Shown here one piece after another: positions 2,922-34,674 of a DNA stretch of 64,000 nt (its first letter is position 1; every line of letters begins with the position of its first letter). The stretch lies in NCBI RefSeq assembly GCF_004117855.1, contig NZ_QWBW01000016.1, forward strand, positions 1-64,000, in the 5' to 3' direction. This DNA is from Modicisalibacter coralii (GTDB lineage: Bacteria; Pseudomonadota; Gammaproteobacteria; Pseudomonadales; Halomonadaceae). The notes beneath the pieces are model-generated. The model was not told where the DNA came from. It worked only from the letters and a program-made list of their open reading frames with translations, and ran no database searches. The position numbers were made by a program, and so were the translations under genes.

Positions 2922-3110
2922 CGCTTGACTGCAATGCGCTCACGGCCCGGTCGGGCAGCGCGAGCGGCAGGCGGCGATATCATCAACGCCTTGAAAACAC
3001 ACATGCACCGTCACATGGTCCCGGGTGCCGAGGTCGACGCCGACAGGCGTGCCGCGGTCGGATCCATGGGGTGCATGGAGGCCTAACCCGATTCATCAGG
3101 AGACATCCCC
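2922..3110 (+). promoter_or_regulatory. rpsB 5' leader, possible S2 autoregulatory region
   Basis: About 190 nt of non-coding leader separates the predicted start site from the rpsB ATG. In E. coli a leader of similar length binds S2 and represses rpsB-tsf. The length and location fit, but I have not established a matching fold, so the role is inferred from the family. A good ribosome binding site (CAGGAGA) sits 8 nt before the ATG. Confidence 0.35.
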
Positions 3111-29701: not shown

Positions 29702-30029
29702 ATTCAACGAAGACAGCGCTTAGGCAAACACCAACCCCGTATCCGGCAGGGGCTTCGACGCTGGCGCCGGGGAGGCGCGCCAACGACCCGGACCCCAGGC
29801 CGAGCATCGCGCACGGCACCACGCAGGCTGTGGGCGGCGGGTCGGCGCGATCGGTCGTGATTTCCATTCGGCGTTGGCTGGCTGGTCATGACTCGGGCGC
29901 GTAGAATCCCGCCCAGTGCCTGCTGTCGTCCCCGCGCCCGGTGCCCGTGGTGGCAGGCTGACGGGCGACGTCGCGACATTCGCCGGGGTTCTGCATGACC
30001 ATCAATCGCTGGGTGGCGTTACCGTTATC
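29702..30029. other. umuD-ubiD divergent intergenic region
   Basis: These 328 bp carry no supported gene. The ubiD frame is open upstream to 29916, but UbiD proteins start at the MKYRDLREF segment. A -10-like TAGAAT at 29902-29907 could serve ubiD, although no -35 at a suitable distance is convincing. Nothing else is recognised. Confidence 0.4.
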
Positions 30030-31514
30030 ATGAAGTACAGGGATTTACGCGAGTTCATCGCGGCGCTCGAGACGCAGGGCGAACTGCATCGTGTCACCGC
30101 CGAGGTCGACCCCTACCTGGAGATCACCGAGATCTGCGACCGGACGCTGCGCGCCGGCGGGCCGGCGCTGTTGTTCGAGAACGTCAAGGGCCACGACATG
30201 CCGGTGCTCGGCAACCTGTTCGGCACCCCGCGGCGGGTGGCGCTGGGCATGGGACAGGACAGCGTGACGGCGCTGCGCGAGGTCGGCGAGCTGCTGGCCT
30301 TCCTCAAGGAGCCGGAGCCGCCCAAGGGCTTTCGCGACGCCCTCGACAAGCTGCCGGTGTTCCGCCAGGTGATGAGCATGGGGCCCAAGACGCTGCGCAA
30401 GGCGCCGGTGCAGGAGGTGGTGCACGAGGGCGAGGCGGTCGATCTCGACCGCATTCCCATCCAGCACTGCTGGCCGGGCGATGCCGCGCCGCTGGTGACC
30501 TGGGCGCTGGTGGTCACCAAGGGGCCCCACAAGACGCGCCAGAACCTGGGGATCTACCGCCAGCAGAAGCTGGGGCGCAACCGGCTGATCATGCGCTGGT
30601 TGAGCCACCGCGGCGGCGCGCTGGATTTCCAGGAATTCCAGCGGGCGCATCCCGGCGAGCCGTTCCCGGTGGCGGTGGCGCTGGGCGCCGATCCGGCGAC
30701 CATCCTCGGCGCGGTGACCCCGGTGCCGGATACGCTCTCCGAGTACGCCTTCGCCGGGCTGCTCAGAGGCTCGCGCACCGAGCTGGTCAAGTGCGGCCAC
30801 GCCGATCTCGAGGTGCCGGCGTCGAGCGAGATCGTCCTGGAAGGCTTCATCCACCCCGACGACGTCGCCGAGGAGGGTCCCTACGGCGATCACACCGGCT
30901 ACTACAACGAGGTCGAGACCTTCCCGGTGTTCACCGTCGAGCGCATCACCCACCGCCGCGAGCCGATCTATCACTCGACCTATACCGGCCGGCCGCCCGA
31001 CGAGCCGGCGGTGCTGGGGCTGGCGCTCAACGAGGTGTTCGTCCCCATCCTGCGCAAGCAGTTCCCGGAGATCGTCGATTTCTACCTGCCGCCGGAAGGC
31101 TGTTCCTACCGCATGGCGGTGGTGACCATGAAGAAGCAGTATCCCGGCCACGCCAAGCGGGTGATGATGGGCGTTTGGAGTTTCCTGCGTCAGTTCATGT
31201 ACACCAAGTTCGTGATCGTGCTCGACGACGACGTCGACGCGCGCCGCTGGGAGGACGTGATCTGGGCGATCACCACGCGCATGGATCCGGTGCGTGATAC
31301 GGTGATGGTCGAGAACACGCCCATCGACTATCTCGACTTTGCCTCGCCGGTCGCCGGGCTGGGCTCGAAGATGGGCCTCGATGCGACCAACAAGTGGCCG
31401 GGCGAGACCGATCGCGAGTGGGGCCAGCCGATCGTCATGGACGAGAGCGTCAAGACGCGCGTCGACGCGCGCTGGAATGAACTGGGCATCCCGCTGCCCG
31501 ACGAGGACCGCTGA
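30030..31514 (+). CDS. ubiD: 4-hydroxy-3-polyprenylbenzoate decarboxylase UbiD
   Basis: Prenylated-FMN-dependent decarboxylase of ubiquinone biosynthesis. The 494 residues (E. coli 497) begin [19 protein letters not shown]. They contain [21 protein letters not shown], the cofactor and metal region [20 protein letters not shown] (20 residues) and [13 protein letters not shown]. The C-terminus DATNKWPGE is typical. The cofactor is supplied by UbiX, which is not in this window. A flavin reductase gene follows after 35 bp. Confidence 0.97.
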
Positions 31515-31549
31515 ATGCCAGCGCCCGCATCCATCGACATGAGGACAGC

Positions 31550-32356
31550 ATGACGGCAAGGACCCTGACCTTTCAGGTGGCGTCGGTGGAGGATCTCACT
31601 CCCGACGTCTTCCGCGTGCGACTCGAGGGTCGCGCCGAGGCGGTGACTCATGCACCGGGGCAGTATCTCGAGCTCAAGCTCGATGACCAGACCTGGGTGC
31701 CGTTCTCGATCGCCAACGCCCATCGGGGCGACGGCAGCATCGAGCTGCACATCCAGCACTGGCCGGAGCGCGCCAATTCGCAGCGGCTGCGCGAGCTCAT
31801 GCAGCATCTCGCCCGGCTCACCGTGCGCCTGCCGGGCGGCGAGTGCGTGCTCGACGCCGACAGCAACCGGCCGCTGCTGCTGATCGCCGCCGGTACCGGT
31901 TTCGCCCAGATGAAGGCGCTGCTCGAGGCGGCCTTCGCCGCCGACGATGCGCTACCGGTCGAGTTCTGGTGGGCGGTCCGCGAGCGTCGCGACTTCTACC
32001 TCGAGAGTCTGGCCCGCGACTGGGCCGCGCGTTACCCCAACTTCCGCTTCCACGCCGTCGCCGAGGAACCGCTCGAGGCCGGCTTCGAGGCCGAACGGGT
32101 CTTCGCCCACCAGGGGCGGGTGGATGCCGTGCTGGCCGAGTCGGTCGACGACGTCTCGGGCTACGACGTCTACCTGTCCGGCTCGCCGGGCATGGTCTAT
32201 GCCTGCGTCGACGCCCTGGCGCCGCGCGGCCTGGACACGGCTCGCGTGTATTCCGACGTCTTCGCCTATGCGCCGCGGGACCCGCTCTTTCCGCCGCTCG
32301 AGCCGGTGGCCTCCGTGCATGACACCACGCCCGACCTGAACGGGACGCGGTCGTGA
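31550..32356 (+). CDS. fre: NAD(P)H-flavin reductase (Fre-like)
   Basis: Ferredoxin-NADP reductase superfamily protein of 268 residues that reduces free flavins. The flavin-binding beta-barrel contains HAPGQYLELKL and VPFSIANAH; the NAD(P) domain has LLIAAGTGFAQMKALLEA and YDVYLSGSPGMVYA. E. coli Fre is 233 residues; about 30 extra residues lie at the C-terminus (DPLFPPLEP...). Proximity to ubiD suggests it provides reduced FMN for prenyl-FMN synthesis, which is inference. Its stop overlaps folM (GTGA). Confidence 0.85.
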   Translation: MTARTLTFQVASVEDLTPDVFRVRLEGRAEAVTHAPGQYLELKLDDQTWVPFSIANAHRGDGSIELHIQHWPERANSQRLRELMQHLARLTVRLPGGECVLDADSNRPLLLIAAGTGFAQMKALLEAAFAADDALPVEFWWAVRERRDFYLESLARDWAARYPNFRFHAVAEEPLEAGFEAERVFAHQGRVDAVLAESVDDVSGYDVYLSGSPGMVYACVDALAPRGLDTARVYSDVFAYAPRDPLFPPLEPVASVHDTTPDLNGTRS

Positions 32357-33060
32357 GCGTCGCGCCGATTCTGATCACCGGCGGCGGCCAGCGCATCGGC
32401 CGGCACTGCGCCGAACGGCTGGTCGACGACGGGCATCCGGTGATCGTCAGCTACCGCCGCGAGCGCCCCGAACTCGAGGCGCTGCGTCGGCGCGGCGTGG
32501 TGACCCTGCAGGCGGACTTCGCCGAGGCGGCCGGGATTCTCGATTTCATCCGCCGTCTGCGCGACGAGACCGACGCCCTGCGGGCGATCATCCACAACGC
32601 CGCGGCCTGGGTGGCGGACGACGACGACCCGGACGGCGCGCGCTTCGAGCGGCTGTTTCGTGTCCACATGCAGGCGCCGTACCTGATCAACCGGCATTGC
32701 CGGGACCTGCTCGAGGCATGCAGCGAGCCGCAGCGCGACATCATCCACATCACCGACCACCTGGCCGGCGGCGGGATGAGCGAGCATGCCGCCTATGCCG
32801 CCACCAAGGCGGGGCTCGAGAACCTGACGCGCTCCTTCGCCCGACGCTATGCGCCGAGTATCCAGGTCAACGCCATCGCCCCGGGGCCGGTGATGCTCGG
32901 CGGCGAGGATGACGAGGCCATCGCCGAGGCGGTGCGCCGGCGTTCGGCGATGGGCCTGGTGCCCGGGCCGGGCGTGATCTATCAGAGCGTTCGCTATCTG
33001 CTCGACAACCGCTTCACGACCGGCATCACGCTGCCGGTGGACGGCGGCCTGGAAGCGTGA
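32353..33060 (+). CDS. folM: Dihydromonapterin reductase FolM (short-chain dehydrogenase)
   Basis: NADPH-dependent SDR that reduces dihydromonapterin and, less well, dihydrofolate. The 235-residue protein has the atypical nucleotide motif ILITGGGQRIG and VIVSYRRERPELEAL. ADFAEAAGILDFI, ALRAIIHNAAAW and the active-site YAATKAGLENLTRSFAR also follow E. coli FolM closely. The end TTGITLPVDGG is the usual SDR C-terminus. It starts at a GTG overlapping fre by 4 bp. Confidence 0.88.
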   Translation: MSVAPILITGGGQRIGRHCAERLVDDGHPVIVSYRRERPELEALRRRGVVTLQADFAEAAGILDFIRRLRDETDALRAIIHNAAAWVADDDDPDGARFERLFRVHMQAPYLINRHCRDLLEACSEPQRDIIHITDHLAGGGMSEHAAYAATKAGLENLTRSFARRYAPSIQVNAIAPGPVMLGGEDDEAIAEAVRRRSAMGLVPGPGVIYQSVRYLLDNRFTTGITLPVDGGLEA

Positions 33061-33102
33061 GCGGCACCGGGCCCCGACAGGGCGCCGGGCCGATCGCCGG
33101 GG

Positions 33103-33130
33103 TTGCCAAACCCCGTCCAGCGTGTAGGAT
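33103..33130 (+). promoter_or_regulatory. Candidate promoter of the aromatic leader and DAHP synthase
   Basis: TTGCCA, a 16-bp spacer and TAGGAT (33125-33130), 27 bp before the leader-peptide ATG. Transcription would begin near 33137. It lies after the folM stop and is independent of ubiD-fre-folM. Confidence 0.6.
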
Positions 33131-33157
33131 GAAAGGCGAGATTCACGGAGACGACCC

Positions 33158-33283
33158 ATGCCCCGCCAAGCCCTTGCCGACATCGCCAGCGCCGCCCGCT
33201 TCCGGGTGGACGCCTGCGCGTGCCTCGGTCATGGCTATTGGTATTGGTTTACCGGCGGTGCGCCCGCCGGCTCGGCCACCTAG
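33158..33283 (+). CDS. Aromatic amino acid leader peptide (Tyr-Trp-Tyr-Trp-Phe)
   Basis: A 41-codon frame (MPRQALADIA...) with GGAG 7 nt before the ATG. Codons 27-31 read Tyr-Trp-Tyr-Trp-Phe (33236-33250). Five consecutive aromatic codons, two of them Trp, in so short a frame point to a regulatory leader peptide like TrpL or PheL. The stop codon (33281-33283) sits in the loop of a 16-bp stem, and an intrinsic terminator follows 47 nt later. The downstream gene is a DAHP synthase, the entry enzyme of the shikimate pathway. No homology is claimed. Confidence 0.75.
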   Translation: MPRQALADIASAARFRVDACACLGHGYWYWFTGGAPAGSAT

Positions 33284-33346
33284 CCCGAGCCGGAGCGCAC
33301 CCTGAACCGCAGGGTTGCCTCCCGAAAGAACCCCCGTCGGCAACCC
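33257..33346 (+). promoter_or_regulatory. Competing RNA hairpins of a transcription attenuator
   Basis: Stem P1: GGTGCGC (33257-33263) plus CCGGCTCGG (33267-33275) pair with CCGAGCCGG (33285-33293) plus GCGCACC (33295-33301). Stem P2: ACCCT (33299-33303) with AGGGT (33311-33315). Stem P3: GGGTTGCC (33312-33319) with GGCAACCC (33339-33346), which invades the terminator. P1 and P2 exclude each other, as do P2 and P3, and P3 and the terminator. A ribosome stalled at the aromatic codons leaves P1 free; one at the stop codon masks it. Confidence 0.65.
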
Positions 33347-33360
33347 GGCGGGGGTTTTTT
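33330..33360 (+). terminator. Attenuator intrinsic terminator upstream of DAHP synthase
   Basis: ACCCCCGTCGG pairs with CCGGCGGGGGT (11 bp including one G-T pair, loop CAAC) and is followed by a run of six T residues (33355-33360). It lies between the leader peptide and DAHP synthase, so full-length transcription requires read-through. Confidence 0.85.
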
Positions 33361-33423
33361 CATGGGCACCAACCGATTGCATGACCGGCGAGTGCCGGAC
33401 GCTCACGACCAGGAGACTGACTC

Positions 33424-33582
33424 ATGACCCGCATGCCCTTCGTCCATCACGGCTTCGACACCGACTATCGCGGCGAGGGTTATTGGCGATTTAGCGACGC
33501 CCGGTCAGCGCAGTCAGCCACCTCTGGCCGGGTGACCCTGGGTGGCCAACGAACGCCCCGATGTCCCCGAATCCGCCATTGA
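33424..33582 (+). CDS. Short aromatic-rich reading frame between attenuator and DAHP synthase
   Basis: A 52-codon frame with a strong AGGAGA before its ATG and a stop 27 nt before the DAHP synthase gene. The first 23 codons include Phe6, Phe11, Tyr15, Tyr20, Trp21 and Phe23. It may be a second regulatory uORF or a translation-coupling peptide. No terminator follows it, and no family is recognised. Chance remains possible. Confidence 0.35.
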   Translation: MTRMPFVHHGFDTDYRGEGYWRFSDARSAQSATSGRVTLGGQRTPRCPRIRH

Positions 33583-33609
33583 CGCGGACGCGCCAGGAAG
33601 TGAATCGCC

Positions 33610-34674
33610 ATGAACGCACCCATGACCCTCGATCTCTCTGCCGTCGACTCCCCTCGGTCGGCCACCCATCGTCCCCTGCCCACCCCCGCCGAGCTGCGCC
33701 GCGAACTGCCGGTCGACGCTGAACTCGCCTCACGCCTCGCCGACCAGCGCCAGGCCATTCGCGATGTCCTCGCCGGGCGCGACGAGCGCCTGCTGGTAGT
33801 GGTCGGCCCGTGCTCGATCCATGATCCCGACGCCGCGCTGGAGTACGCCGAACGCCTGGCCGCGCTGCAGGCCAGCGTGGCCGATCGTTTGCTGCTGGTG
33901 ATGCGGGTCTACGTCGAGAAGCCGCGCACCACGGTGGGCTGGAAGGGGCTGGCCTACGACCCGCACCTGGACGGCAGCGATGACATGGCGGCGGGGCTGG
34001 CCAGCGCCCGGCGGCTGATGCGCGACGTCGCCGCGCTGGGCCTGCCGGTGGCCACCGAGCTGTTGCAGCCGATGGCCGCGGCCTATTTCGACGATCTCTT
34101 GAGCTGGGTGGCGATCGGCGCGCGCACCACCGAGTCGCAGATCCACCGTGAGCTGGCCAGCGGGCTCGACGCCTGTGTCGGCTTCAAGAACGGCACCCAG
34201 GGCAATGTCGACGTGGCGGTGGCGGCGATGCAGTCGGCGGCGCATCCGCATCGCCACTTCGGGGTCACCGCCGCGGGCACGCCGGCGATGATCGAGACCC
34301 CGGGCAACCCCTTCACCCATCTGGTGCTGCGCGGGGGCCAGGACGGACCCAACCACGATGCCGCCAGCATCGCCGCCAGCCGCCGCGCGCTGGAGGCCGC
34401 CGGGCTGACACCGCGGCTGATGGTCGACTGCAGCCACGCCAATTCGCGCAAGGATCACCGCCGCCAGACCGAGGTGCTGCACAGCGTGGTCGACCAGCGC
34501 CTGGCCGGTGAGCGCGCGCTGATGGGAGTGATGCTCGAAAGCCACCTCTTCGAGGGCAAGCAGCCGCTCAACCCGGCCGCGCTGCGCTACGGCGTCTCGA
34601 TCACCGATGCCTGCCTGGGCTGGGAGACGACCGCGCAGCAGCTCATGCGTGCCGCCGAGCGTCTGCGCGGCTGA
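33610..34674 (+). CDS. 3-deoxy-7-phosphoheptulonate (DAHP) synthase, class I AroF/AroG/AroH type
   Basis: Condenses phosphoenolpyruvate and erythrose 4-phosphate in the first step of aromatic amino acid synthesis. The 354-residue protein shows VVVGPCSIHDPDAALEYA (metal ligand C68), MRVYVEKPRTTVGWKG, ATELLQPMAAAYFDDLLSW, IGARTTESQ, GFKNGTQGN and LMVDCSHANSRKDH. These are the signatures of the E. coli-type enzymes. I cannot tell from sequence which amino acid inhibits it. AGGAAG precedes the ATG. The upstream attenuator implies control by aminoacyl-tRNA supply. It is convergent with gspN, with a 4-bp gap. Confidence 0.95.
   Translation: MNAPMTLDLSAVDSPRSATHRPLPTPAELRRELPVDAELASRLADQRQAIRDVLAGRDERLLVVVGPCSIHDPDAALEYAERLAALQASVADRLLLVMRVYVEKPRTTVGWKGLAYDPHLDGSDDMAAGLASARRLMRDVAALGLPVATELLQPMAAAYFDDLLSWVAIGARTTESQIHRELASGLDACVGFKNGTQGNVDVAVAAMQSAAHPHRHFGVTAAGTPAMIETPGNPFTHLVLRGGQDGPNHDAASIAASRRALEAAGLTPRLMVDCSHANSRKDHRRQTEVLHSVVDQRLAGERALMGVMLESHLFEGKQPLNPAALRYGVSITDACLGWETTAQQLMRAAERLRG

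Follow-up and report, generated by a model that had tools for sequence, protein, structure and literature searches.

Is the entry into aromatic biosynthesis in the Halomonadaceae and their relatives controlled by the charging of aromatic tRNAs, and, if so, how many times is this charging read on one mRNA? The question is raised by a stretch of 64,000 nucleotides from Modicisalibacter coralii (hereafter, the window), in which a putative leader peptide with a run of aromatic codons precedes a DAHP synthase gene. A sequence-only reading of this region had described a promoter, the leader, mutually exclusive hairpins and a terminator, and had proposed that charging of tRNA-Tyr, tRNA-Trp and tRNA-Phe is read by this single leader.

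The aroF locus and its relatives

The downstream gene, taken for a class I DAHP synthase from the sequence alone, scores 449 bits against the NCBIfam model TIGR00034 (cut-off 173), which confirms its identity. Its start lies about 250 nt past the terminator of the first leader.

33610..34674, forward strand: class I DAHP synthase gene (aroF-type), NCBIfam match

The source genome contains two DAHP synthases, the second copy (L002) being 52% identical to aroF. The sole aromatic-rich short ORF found upstream of this second gene encodes Cys-Trp-Tyr-Phe; it lacks a Shine-Dalgarno sequence and is not closely followed by a U tract, and was therefore taken as a chance ORF and rejected as a leader. 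Three co-directional genes at 29916-33057 (forward strand), encoding a UbiD-type decarboxylase, a flavin reductase-like protein and a FolM-like protein (dihydromonapterin reductase), run into the aroF region, and a GspL-like gene lies past it on the opposite strand.

The control region upstream of aroF folds at -129.6 kcal/mol, compared to -94.5 kcal/mol in shuffles (z = -7.2), that is, 35 kcal/mol below the shuffle mean. A scan with curated RNA families found no T-box or riboswitch family above its cut-off in 33060-33640, so a reading of the leader as a T-box or a known riboswitch was discarded. The sole curated RNA family above its cut-off in the window is the t44 RNA of Rfam at 2980-3087 on the forward strand (70.9 bits, cut-off 44).

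For the comparative analysis we used a first set of 81 loci, consisting of the window and the best 80 of 593 candidate relatives with an aroF orthologue, each represented by the orthologous gene and a flank of up to 1.5 kb. The set comprises Halomonadaceae, Pseudomonas and its relatives, and two unassigned gammaproteobacterial MAGs.

A conserved, probable attenuator upstream of aroF

The elements of the first leader (leader 1) in the window are as follows.

33103..33130, forward strand: sigma-70-type promoter TTGCCA-16-TAGGAT (one found, 0.0 expected in shuffles)
33147..33150, forward strand: Shine-Dalgarno sequence of leader 1, GGAG (from the sequence)
33158..33283, forward strand: leader ORF 1, ATG at 33158, 41 codons and TAG (ORF translation, conservation)
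33236..33250, forward strand: Tyr-Trp-Tyr-Trp-Phe codons TAT TGG TAT TGG TTT (sequence, codon bias)
33257..33301, forward strand: P1 hairpin, 33257-33275 with 33285-33301 (inverted repeats, fold)
33298..33316, forward strand: P2 hairpin, 33298-33304 with 33310-33316, sequestering the antiterminator strand (inverted repeat, fold)
33312..33319, forward strand: antiterminator strand D, GGGTTGCC (inverted repeat, covariation)
33339..33346, forward strand: antiterminator partner E, GGCAACCC, within the terminator (inverted repeat, covariation)
33324..33361, forward strand: intrinsic terminator with U tract (inverted repeat; terminator scan, one found, 0.2 expected)

The predicted translation of leader 1 is MPRQALADIASAARFRVDACACLGHGYWYWFTGGAPAGSAT, followed by the stop codon. 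The five consecutive aromatic codons described earlier, Tyr-Trp-Tyr-Trp-Phe at 33236-33250, are in place, and inverted repeats account for P1, P2, the terminator and the pairing of GGGTTGCC with GGCAACCC, D (33312-33319) being perfectly complementary to E (33339-33346). The promoter-like site at 33103-33130 bears out the proposed promoter and sits just outside the interval originally marked (33137..33360); identical TTGCCA...TAGGAT boxes occur in L007, L010 and L020, and only 16 of the 81 loci have, at most 110 nt from the leader-1 ATG, a promoter-like site that matches at 9 or more of 12 positions.

An aromatic leader precedes the aroF orthologue in all 81 loci, 80 of which were identified by a script, while the variant W-Y-G-Y-F of L012 was not caught by it. 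This argues that leader 1 is not a chance ORF. FYFGYWFS is the commonest ending of the peptide (32 of the 80 script-found loci). For Phe and Tyr, leader 1 mostly uses the rare codons. Over its final 24 codons, Phe is written as TTT in 170 of 205 cases and Tyr as TAT in 168 of 187, whereas in the aroF genes (77 of the first-set loci) TTT makes up 5% of Phe and TAT 18% of Tyr codons.

A strict script found the terminator in 69 of the 81 loci; in the remaining twelve a terminator hairpin with a mismatch or a larger loop is visible by eye, several of them with a weak U tract. Weak U tracts are also noted for several Halomonadaceae. Strands D and E change together, as in GGGTTGCC/GGCAACCC, GGGCTGCC/GGCAGCCC and GGTTGCC/GGTAACC. 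When strands were paired with their own or with swapped partners, the mean energies were -10.8 and -9.4 kcal/mol, respectively (p = 0.0002; 22 distinct pairs from 79 loci, two of the 81 being left out since the script found no E there; the permutation ignores kinship). Halomonadaceae alone gave p = 0.004 with the same permutation, which likewise ignores kinship (10 pairs, 24 loci). In Pseudomonas the D/E pair often has a mismatch at two of its eight positions. The comparison with relatives, proposed as a check of the attenuator, shows both kept aromatic codons and covarying strands, and the loss of the codons or of the terminator in relatives, which would have spoken against it, is not what the 81 loci show.

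According to the switching logic proposed for leader 1, a ribosome slowed at the Tyr, Trp and Phe codons would allow P1 to form. P1 would take up the strand that otherwise traps GGGTTGCC, which would therefore pair with GGCAACCC, break the terminator and let transcription continue. With charged tRNAs the ribosome would reach the stop codon of leader 1, P2 would trap GGGTTGCC and the terminator would form. Folding of the window agrees with this scheme: the mean probability that the 5' arm of the terminator (strand E) is held by upstream RNA is 0.76 for a ribosome stalled at Trp, 0.38 for a ribosome at the stop codon and 0.00 for the untranslated RNA. Across all loci, folds of the transcript up to E changed in the expected sense in only eight of 81 cases and in the opposite sense in one; this is an equilibrium measure, and it discriminates poorly between the states. 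Folding up to the end of D is a better proxy for the co-transcriptional order (L081, where the script found no D, was left out). For a ribosome footprint of 12 nt, moving the ribosome from the Trp stall to the stop codon raised the sequestration of D in 74 of 80 loci and lowered it in two; for a footprint of 15 nt, it rose in 20 and fell in 30 of the 80. The proposed logic is backed by the window and by the shorter footprint but not by the longer one, and we regard it as plausible on computational grounds.

The order of the segments was claimed to differ from that of the classical trp attenuator. This order is not new, since the attenuator of the his operon has the same arrangement with an extra segment. 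There, too, a run of codons is followed by successive competing hairpins, a stall leads to the antiterminator and a ribosome at the stop codon to termination; the differences are that the codons here are those for Tyr, Trp and Phe, that a DAHP synthase is regulated and that a second leader follows. The His_leader family of Rfam matches only the terminator part in the window (22.3 bits, cut-off 49).

In summary, the components of an attenuator are all seen in leader 1, namely an ORF with a Shine-Dalgarno sequence and a run of cognate codons (its translation being predicted), a terminator and a mutually exclusive antiterminator. With its conserved aromatic run, rare-codon bias and covarying antiterminator strands, the attenuator reading has good support. 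Comparative sequence data lead us to conclude that leader 1 is most probably a real, conserved attenuator of the his type, predicted to be able to read three aromatic tRNAs.

Leader 1 and the Pseudomonas RNA P15

The Rfam family RF00627, the Pseudomonas sRNA P15, resembles leader 1 in that it spans the region from the aromatic codons to the terminator, and differs in being filed as an sRNA gene. The P15 scan covered 36 of the 81 first-set loci. The family covers the end of leader 1, from its codons to the terminator, above the cut-off of 70 in all 27 non-Halomonadaceae loci scanned, while none of the nine Halomonadaceae loci scanned reached it; the window itself gives a full-length match of 25.2 bits, below the cut-off. 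In a search across the class, two of 274 genomes matched, one of them over the cut-off. L085, from another order, has leader 1 with the sequence YFYGYWFSRY and a P15 match of 69.8 against the cut-off of 70; it has no leader 2 (see below).

We read P15 as the putative terminated leader of the leader-1 attenuator. Conversely, the leader-1 transcript might be a trans-acting small RNA whose position before aroF is incidental, as its listing as an sRNA gene in Rfam would have it; P15 is also among the sRNAs detected by Livny et al., according to an excerpt of PMC2375449. A trans-acting RNA leaves the aromatic leader ORF, the rare-codon bias, the covariation of the antiterminator and the location in front of aroF at all 81 loci unaccounted for, and a terminated leader explains a short P15 transcript as well, so that we consider this reading very unlikely. 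P15 may have an additional trans role beside attenuation. Among the matches listed in the open-access literature, no paper links P15 to attenuation.

A second leader ORF between the terminator and aroF

The claim that a single leader reads the charging did not hold. A second conserved leader ORF with aromatic codons, absent from the earlier account, occupies part of the stretch that separates the leader-1 terminator from the aroF start at 33610.

33411..33415, forward strand: Shine-Dalgarno sequence of leader 2, AGGAG (from the sequence)
33424..33582, forward strand: leader ORF 2, 52 codons and TGA, containing DYRGEGYWRFS (ORF, conservation)
33484..33495, forward strand: near-invariant TGGCGATTTAGC, Trp-Arg-Phe-Ser codons (conservation)
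33559..33561, forward strand: another conserved CGA codon in the frame of leader 2 (frame conservation)

The predicted peptide, MTRMPFVHHGFDTDYRGEGYWRFSDARSAQSATSGRVTLGGQRTPRCPRIRH, contains Tyr, Trp and Phe residues. Leader 2 is present in 77 of the 81 first-set loci, the four without it being Salinicola. The string TGGCGATTTA, encoding Trp-Arg-Phe, stands unchanged in 76 of the 77 loci, with GC, CC or GT as the next two letters. An SD-like stretch (script score of at least 2) precedes the ATG of leader 2 in 77 of 77 loci. A second motif, CGA[AT][CG], is absent from four of the 77 loci and lies in frame in 72 of the other 73, at a distance from the Trp codon that takes eleven values. Translation of leader 2 is supported by the SD-like stretch and by the preservation of the frame despite this varying spacing. 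Together, the two leaders would form a control region of the DAHP synthase gene that senses aromatic amino acids in two stages. It is likely, judging from conservation, that stage 1 as the attenuator described above and stage 2 as a real translated leader both exist.

Leader 2 has the rare Arg codon CGA almost invariably after its Trp codon. Of the 276 Arg codons downstream of the Trp-Arg-Phe string, 112 are CGA, whereas in the aroF genes CGA encodes 3.5% of the Arg residues. In L178 (genome G474) the string reads Trp-Arg-Tyr; this exchange of one aromatic residue for another hints at a possible role of the aromatic codon as such.

In the source genome, TGGCGATTTASC is found a single time. The word TGGCGATTTASY occurs in 127 of 145 genomes of the order, but a control with the reversed pattern also matches in many, so the word alone is uninformative in the order and was dropped as a marker. 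A search for a conserved cis partner of TGGCGATTTA was likewise abandoned: in the window, GTTATTGGCGATT can pair with the aroF start, which by eye it does not do in the relatives examined, and RNAalifold pairs the motif weakly with GGTGGC, in competition with the stronger stem S2 described below. In L021-L077 (long-type Pseudomonas) a GC-rich hairpin with apparently compensatory changes, noted by eye, extends from the stop codon of leader 2 to near the aroF Shine-Dalgarno sequence.

A pseudoknot overlapping the second leader

An H-type pseudoknot, formed by two stems, begins 4-8 nt after TGGCGATTTA in 57 of the 77 leader-2 loci.

33500..33532, forward strand: pseudoknot stem S1, 33500-33507 with 33525-33532 (alignment, covariation)
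33517..33546, forward strand: pseudoknot stem S2, 33517-33522 with 33541-33546 (alignment, covariation)

Fifty five of the 77 loci could be aligned gap-free from the Trp codon. The others are 20 short-type loci as well as L010 and L017, both of which are included in the count of 57. In this alignment 95.0% of the cells of the knot are paired, compared to 91.6% after shuffling, 15 cells changed on both sides (4.7 after shuffling), and the covariation score is 0.148 (0.099 after shuffling); none of 500 shuffles, which ignore kinship, reached any of these values. The number of pairs with two-sided change (3, compared to 1.9; 37 of 500 shuffles) and of further pair types (13, compared to 11.3; 78 of 500) are not exceptional. 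Sliding the partner strands lowers the pairing to 18-53%; with the 3' strands slid by +3, 52.9% of the cells are paired, 21 are two-sided and the score is 0.119. The changes in S2 within the 55 loci are on one side only.

The strongest support for the knot, as far as sequence comparison goes, comes from diverged loci outside the alignment. L010, L017, the loci of genus g320 (L190-L192) and those of genus g2 (L094, L195 and L197) have changed or quite different letters and can form a similar knot 4-8 nt after TGGCGATTTA; for each of the six g320 and g2 loci, zero to two of 300 shuffles reach the score of the knot. The pseudoknot is absent from the 20 short-type loci, which keep TGGCGATTTA (one with a mismatch) and belong to Pseudomonas of the stutzeri and aeruginosa kind, Halopseudomonas and two MAGs.

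Distribution of the two leaders

A model of the knot region (R1) matched 35 of 61 family genomes, each with a single copy, and likewise five of 194 genomes sampled across the order, mostly from other families. Loci were newly fetched from 32 of the 35 positive family genomes, and all 32 contain both leaders, with a terminator pattern in 30 and a DAHP synthase motif downstream in 27; 26 of these 32 loci differ from the first set. The 26 model-negative family genomes comprise twelve without an aroF orthologue at E <= 1e-115 and 14 with one. Leader 1 is present in all 14. A leader 2 with a diverged knot accompanies it in the six from g320 and g2, and no TGGCGATTTA was seen in the eight from g225, g321 and g329. 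Thus, among the 49 sampled family genomes with an orthologue, 49 have leader 1 and 41 have leader 2, which is missing in eight.

Leader 1 and aroF are present without leader 2 in L003-L006, L086, L187-L189 (g225, Salinicola-like), L193, L196 and L198 (g321) and L194 (g329); all of these are natural deletions and useful controls. Beyond the family but within the order, the closest homologues in the families f3 and f211 (59-67% identical) and f190 (55% identical) come with leader 1; leader 2 was seen in f3 and, of the three f211 genomes, in one. The leader of the DAHP synthase in f190 (L098 and L109) reads FFWWFGYGFYFS, and no leader 2 was seen there; f190 possibly represents an older state with a single leader.

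Possible functions of the second leader

In the source genome and most relatives, the Tyr, Trp and Phe codons of leader 2 run into TGG-CGA-TTT-A, and the predicted knot follows 4-8 nt on, about where it would be met by a ribosome with the Phe or the Trp codon in its A site. These features point to a programmed ribosome pause that is sensitive to charging and would tune translation of aroF; alteration of TGGCGATTT or of the pseudoknot would then change aroF translation. Both the pause and its effect on aroF are deduced from the sequence, and we favour this reading only tentatively, at somewhat less than an even chance.

The knot could act on aroF more directly, as part of it is complementary to the ribosome-binding region of the gene.

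33592..33600, forward strand: aroF ribosome-binding region GCCAGGAAG, in which GCCAGG can pair with UCUGGC of the knot (33523-33528)

In such a translational attenuator, the knot and the aroF Shine-Dalgarno sequence would compete for the same strand, and a ribosome upstream of the knot would leave the ribosome-binding site open; a precedent is the actinobacterial LEU element, as outlined in an excerpt of PMC1262725. In Halomonadaceae with a GGAG-type Shine-Dalgarno sequence, the 3' strand of S1 pairs better with its own than with swapped sites (-15.4 compared to -13.8, p = 0.0017; 26 loci pooled from both sets), while three control strands gave p = 0.06, 0.76 and 0.997. The first set gave p = 0.002 (21 loci), but the independent set of 26 taken alone gave p = 0.15, and 19 pooled loci with other Shine-Dalgarno sequences gave p = 0.24. 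The predicted opening of the site is also small, with seven of 21 loci more open, one less open and the source genome unchanged, and long-type Pseudomonas have, by eye, a different hairpin before the aroF Shine-Dalgarno sequence. This pairing appears to be supported only in part of the Halomonadaceae. Since the independent set and the other Shine-Dalgarno sequences gave no significant result and the window shows no effect, we keep the anti-Shine-Dalgarno switch only as a rival, possible but doubtful.

Leader 2 might instead act through Rho, its translation masking, or a stalled ribosome exposing, a C-rich Rho site before aroF. No intrinsic terminator was found after leader 2 in 33362-33640, and the stretch past the knot looks, by eye, C-rich and G-poor in Pseudomonas; the linker is short in most Halomonadaceae, however, and exposure of a Rho site upon starvation would work in the wrong direction for a biosynthetic gene, which makes the involvement of Rho unlikely. 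An H-type pseudoknot a few nucleotides downstream of a motif is also the usual architecture of programmed frameshift sites, which TGGCGATTTA and the knot resemble; a frameshift there would join leader 2 to aroF or yield another product. But the X XXY YYZ slippery heptamer of a programmed -1 frameshift signal is absent from the motif, aroF lies in all three frames relative to ORF 2 (28, 19 and 30 of 77 loci), which led us to reject a frameshift fusion of leader 2 with aroF, and no other frame is consistently open or conserved. We thus give frameshifting next to no credence.

If leader 2 does pause the ribosome, the same three tRNA charging levels could be read twice on one mRNA, by the attenuator and then by the pausing device of leader 2. 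Such a two-step sensor is a conjecture that we regard as reasonable, if not yet probable.

Comparison with known systems

A parallel to leader 1 is aroR, an aromatic leader peptide that precedes aroF in Corynebacterium glutamicum and through which the ribosome attenuates this DAHP synthase gene (excerpts of PMC11802643 and PMC4046766). aroR differs from the leaders described here in having only Phe-Tyr-Phe and in belonging to an unrelated phylum, and the excerpts mention no second leader; it responds to Phe and not to Tyr, as stated in PMC11802643, which reviews Neshat et al. 2014. Similarly, uORFC-13-1 of Acholeplasma is an upstream ORF with aromatic codon(s) and a terminator before aroF, a DAHP synthase gene, but it has Phe codon(s) only, comes from distant bacteria and is a different RNA (excerpt of PMC8632094). 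Leader-peptide attenuation has also been suggested for aroF of Escherichia coli and Shewanella, according to excerpts of PMC8632094 and PMC2659441.

The LEU element of actinobacterial leuA resembles leader 2 as an ORF with cognate codons that overlaps a pseudoknot near the ribosome-binding site of a biosynthesis gene. As described in the excerpt of PMC1262725, the Leu codons there form a base stem with the Shine-Dalgarno sequence; here no such conserved stem was found, and a transcription attenuator precedes. A match of this kind in the window (33479-33491 with 33603-33615) targets the region of the aroF start codon and was not seen, by eye, in the relatives examined.

The matches listed in the open-access literature include no report of aroF attenuation in Pseudomonas or Halomonas, or of a second aroF leader. 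Leader 1 is a further case of a known type of attenuator, and the tandem arrangement is what appears to be new: an attenuator followed by a second predicted leader with a near-invariant Trp-CGA-Phe string and a covarying putative knot.

Implications for aromatic biosynthesis

These results reinterpret P15, an 'sRNA' in Rfam, as a leader-peptide attenuator. If the pause reading of leader 2 is true, its Trp-CGA-Phe(UUU) string and knot would be a new leader-peptide module common to the Halomonadaceae and many Pseudomonas. A leader peptide overlapping a knot at about the distance of a ribosome pause is an uncommon design and could show sensing of starvation at the codon level during translation. 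Both leaders bear on the engineering of Pseudomonas strains that produce aromatic compounds. An excerpt of PMC5343134 says that TyrR/PhhR of Pseudomonas controls mostly degradation. The tandem leaders offer a testable answer to the question of how entry into the shikimate pathway is controlled in Pseudomonas and Halomonas relatives, to which the TyrR/TrpR logic of E. coli need not carry over.
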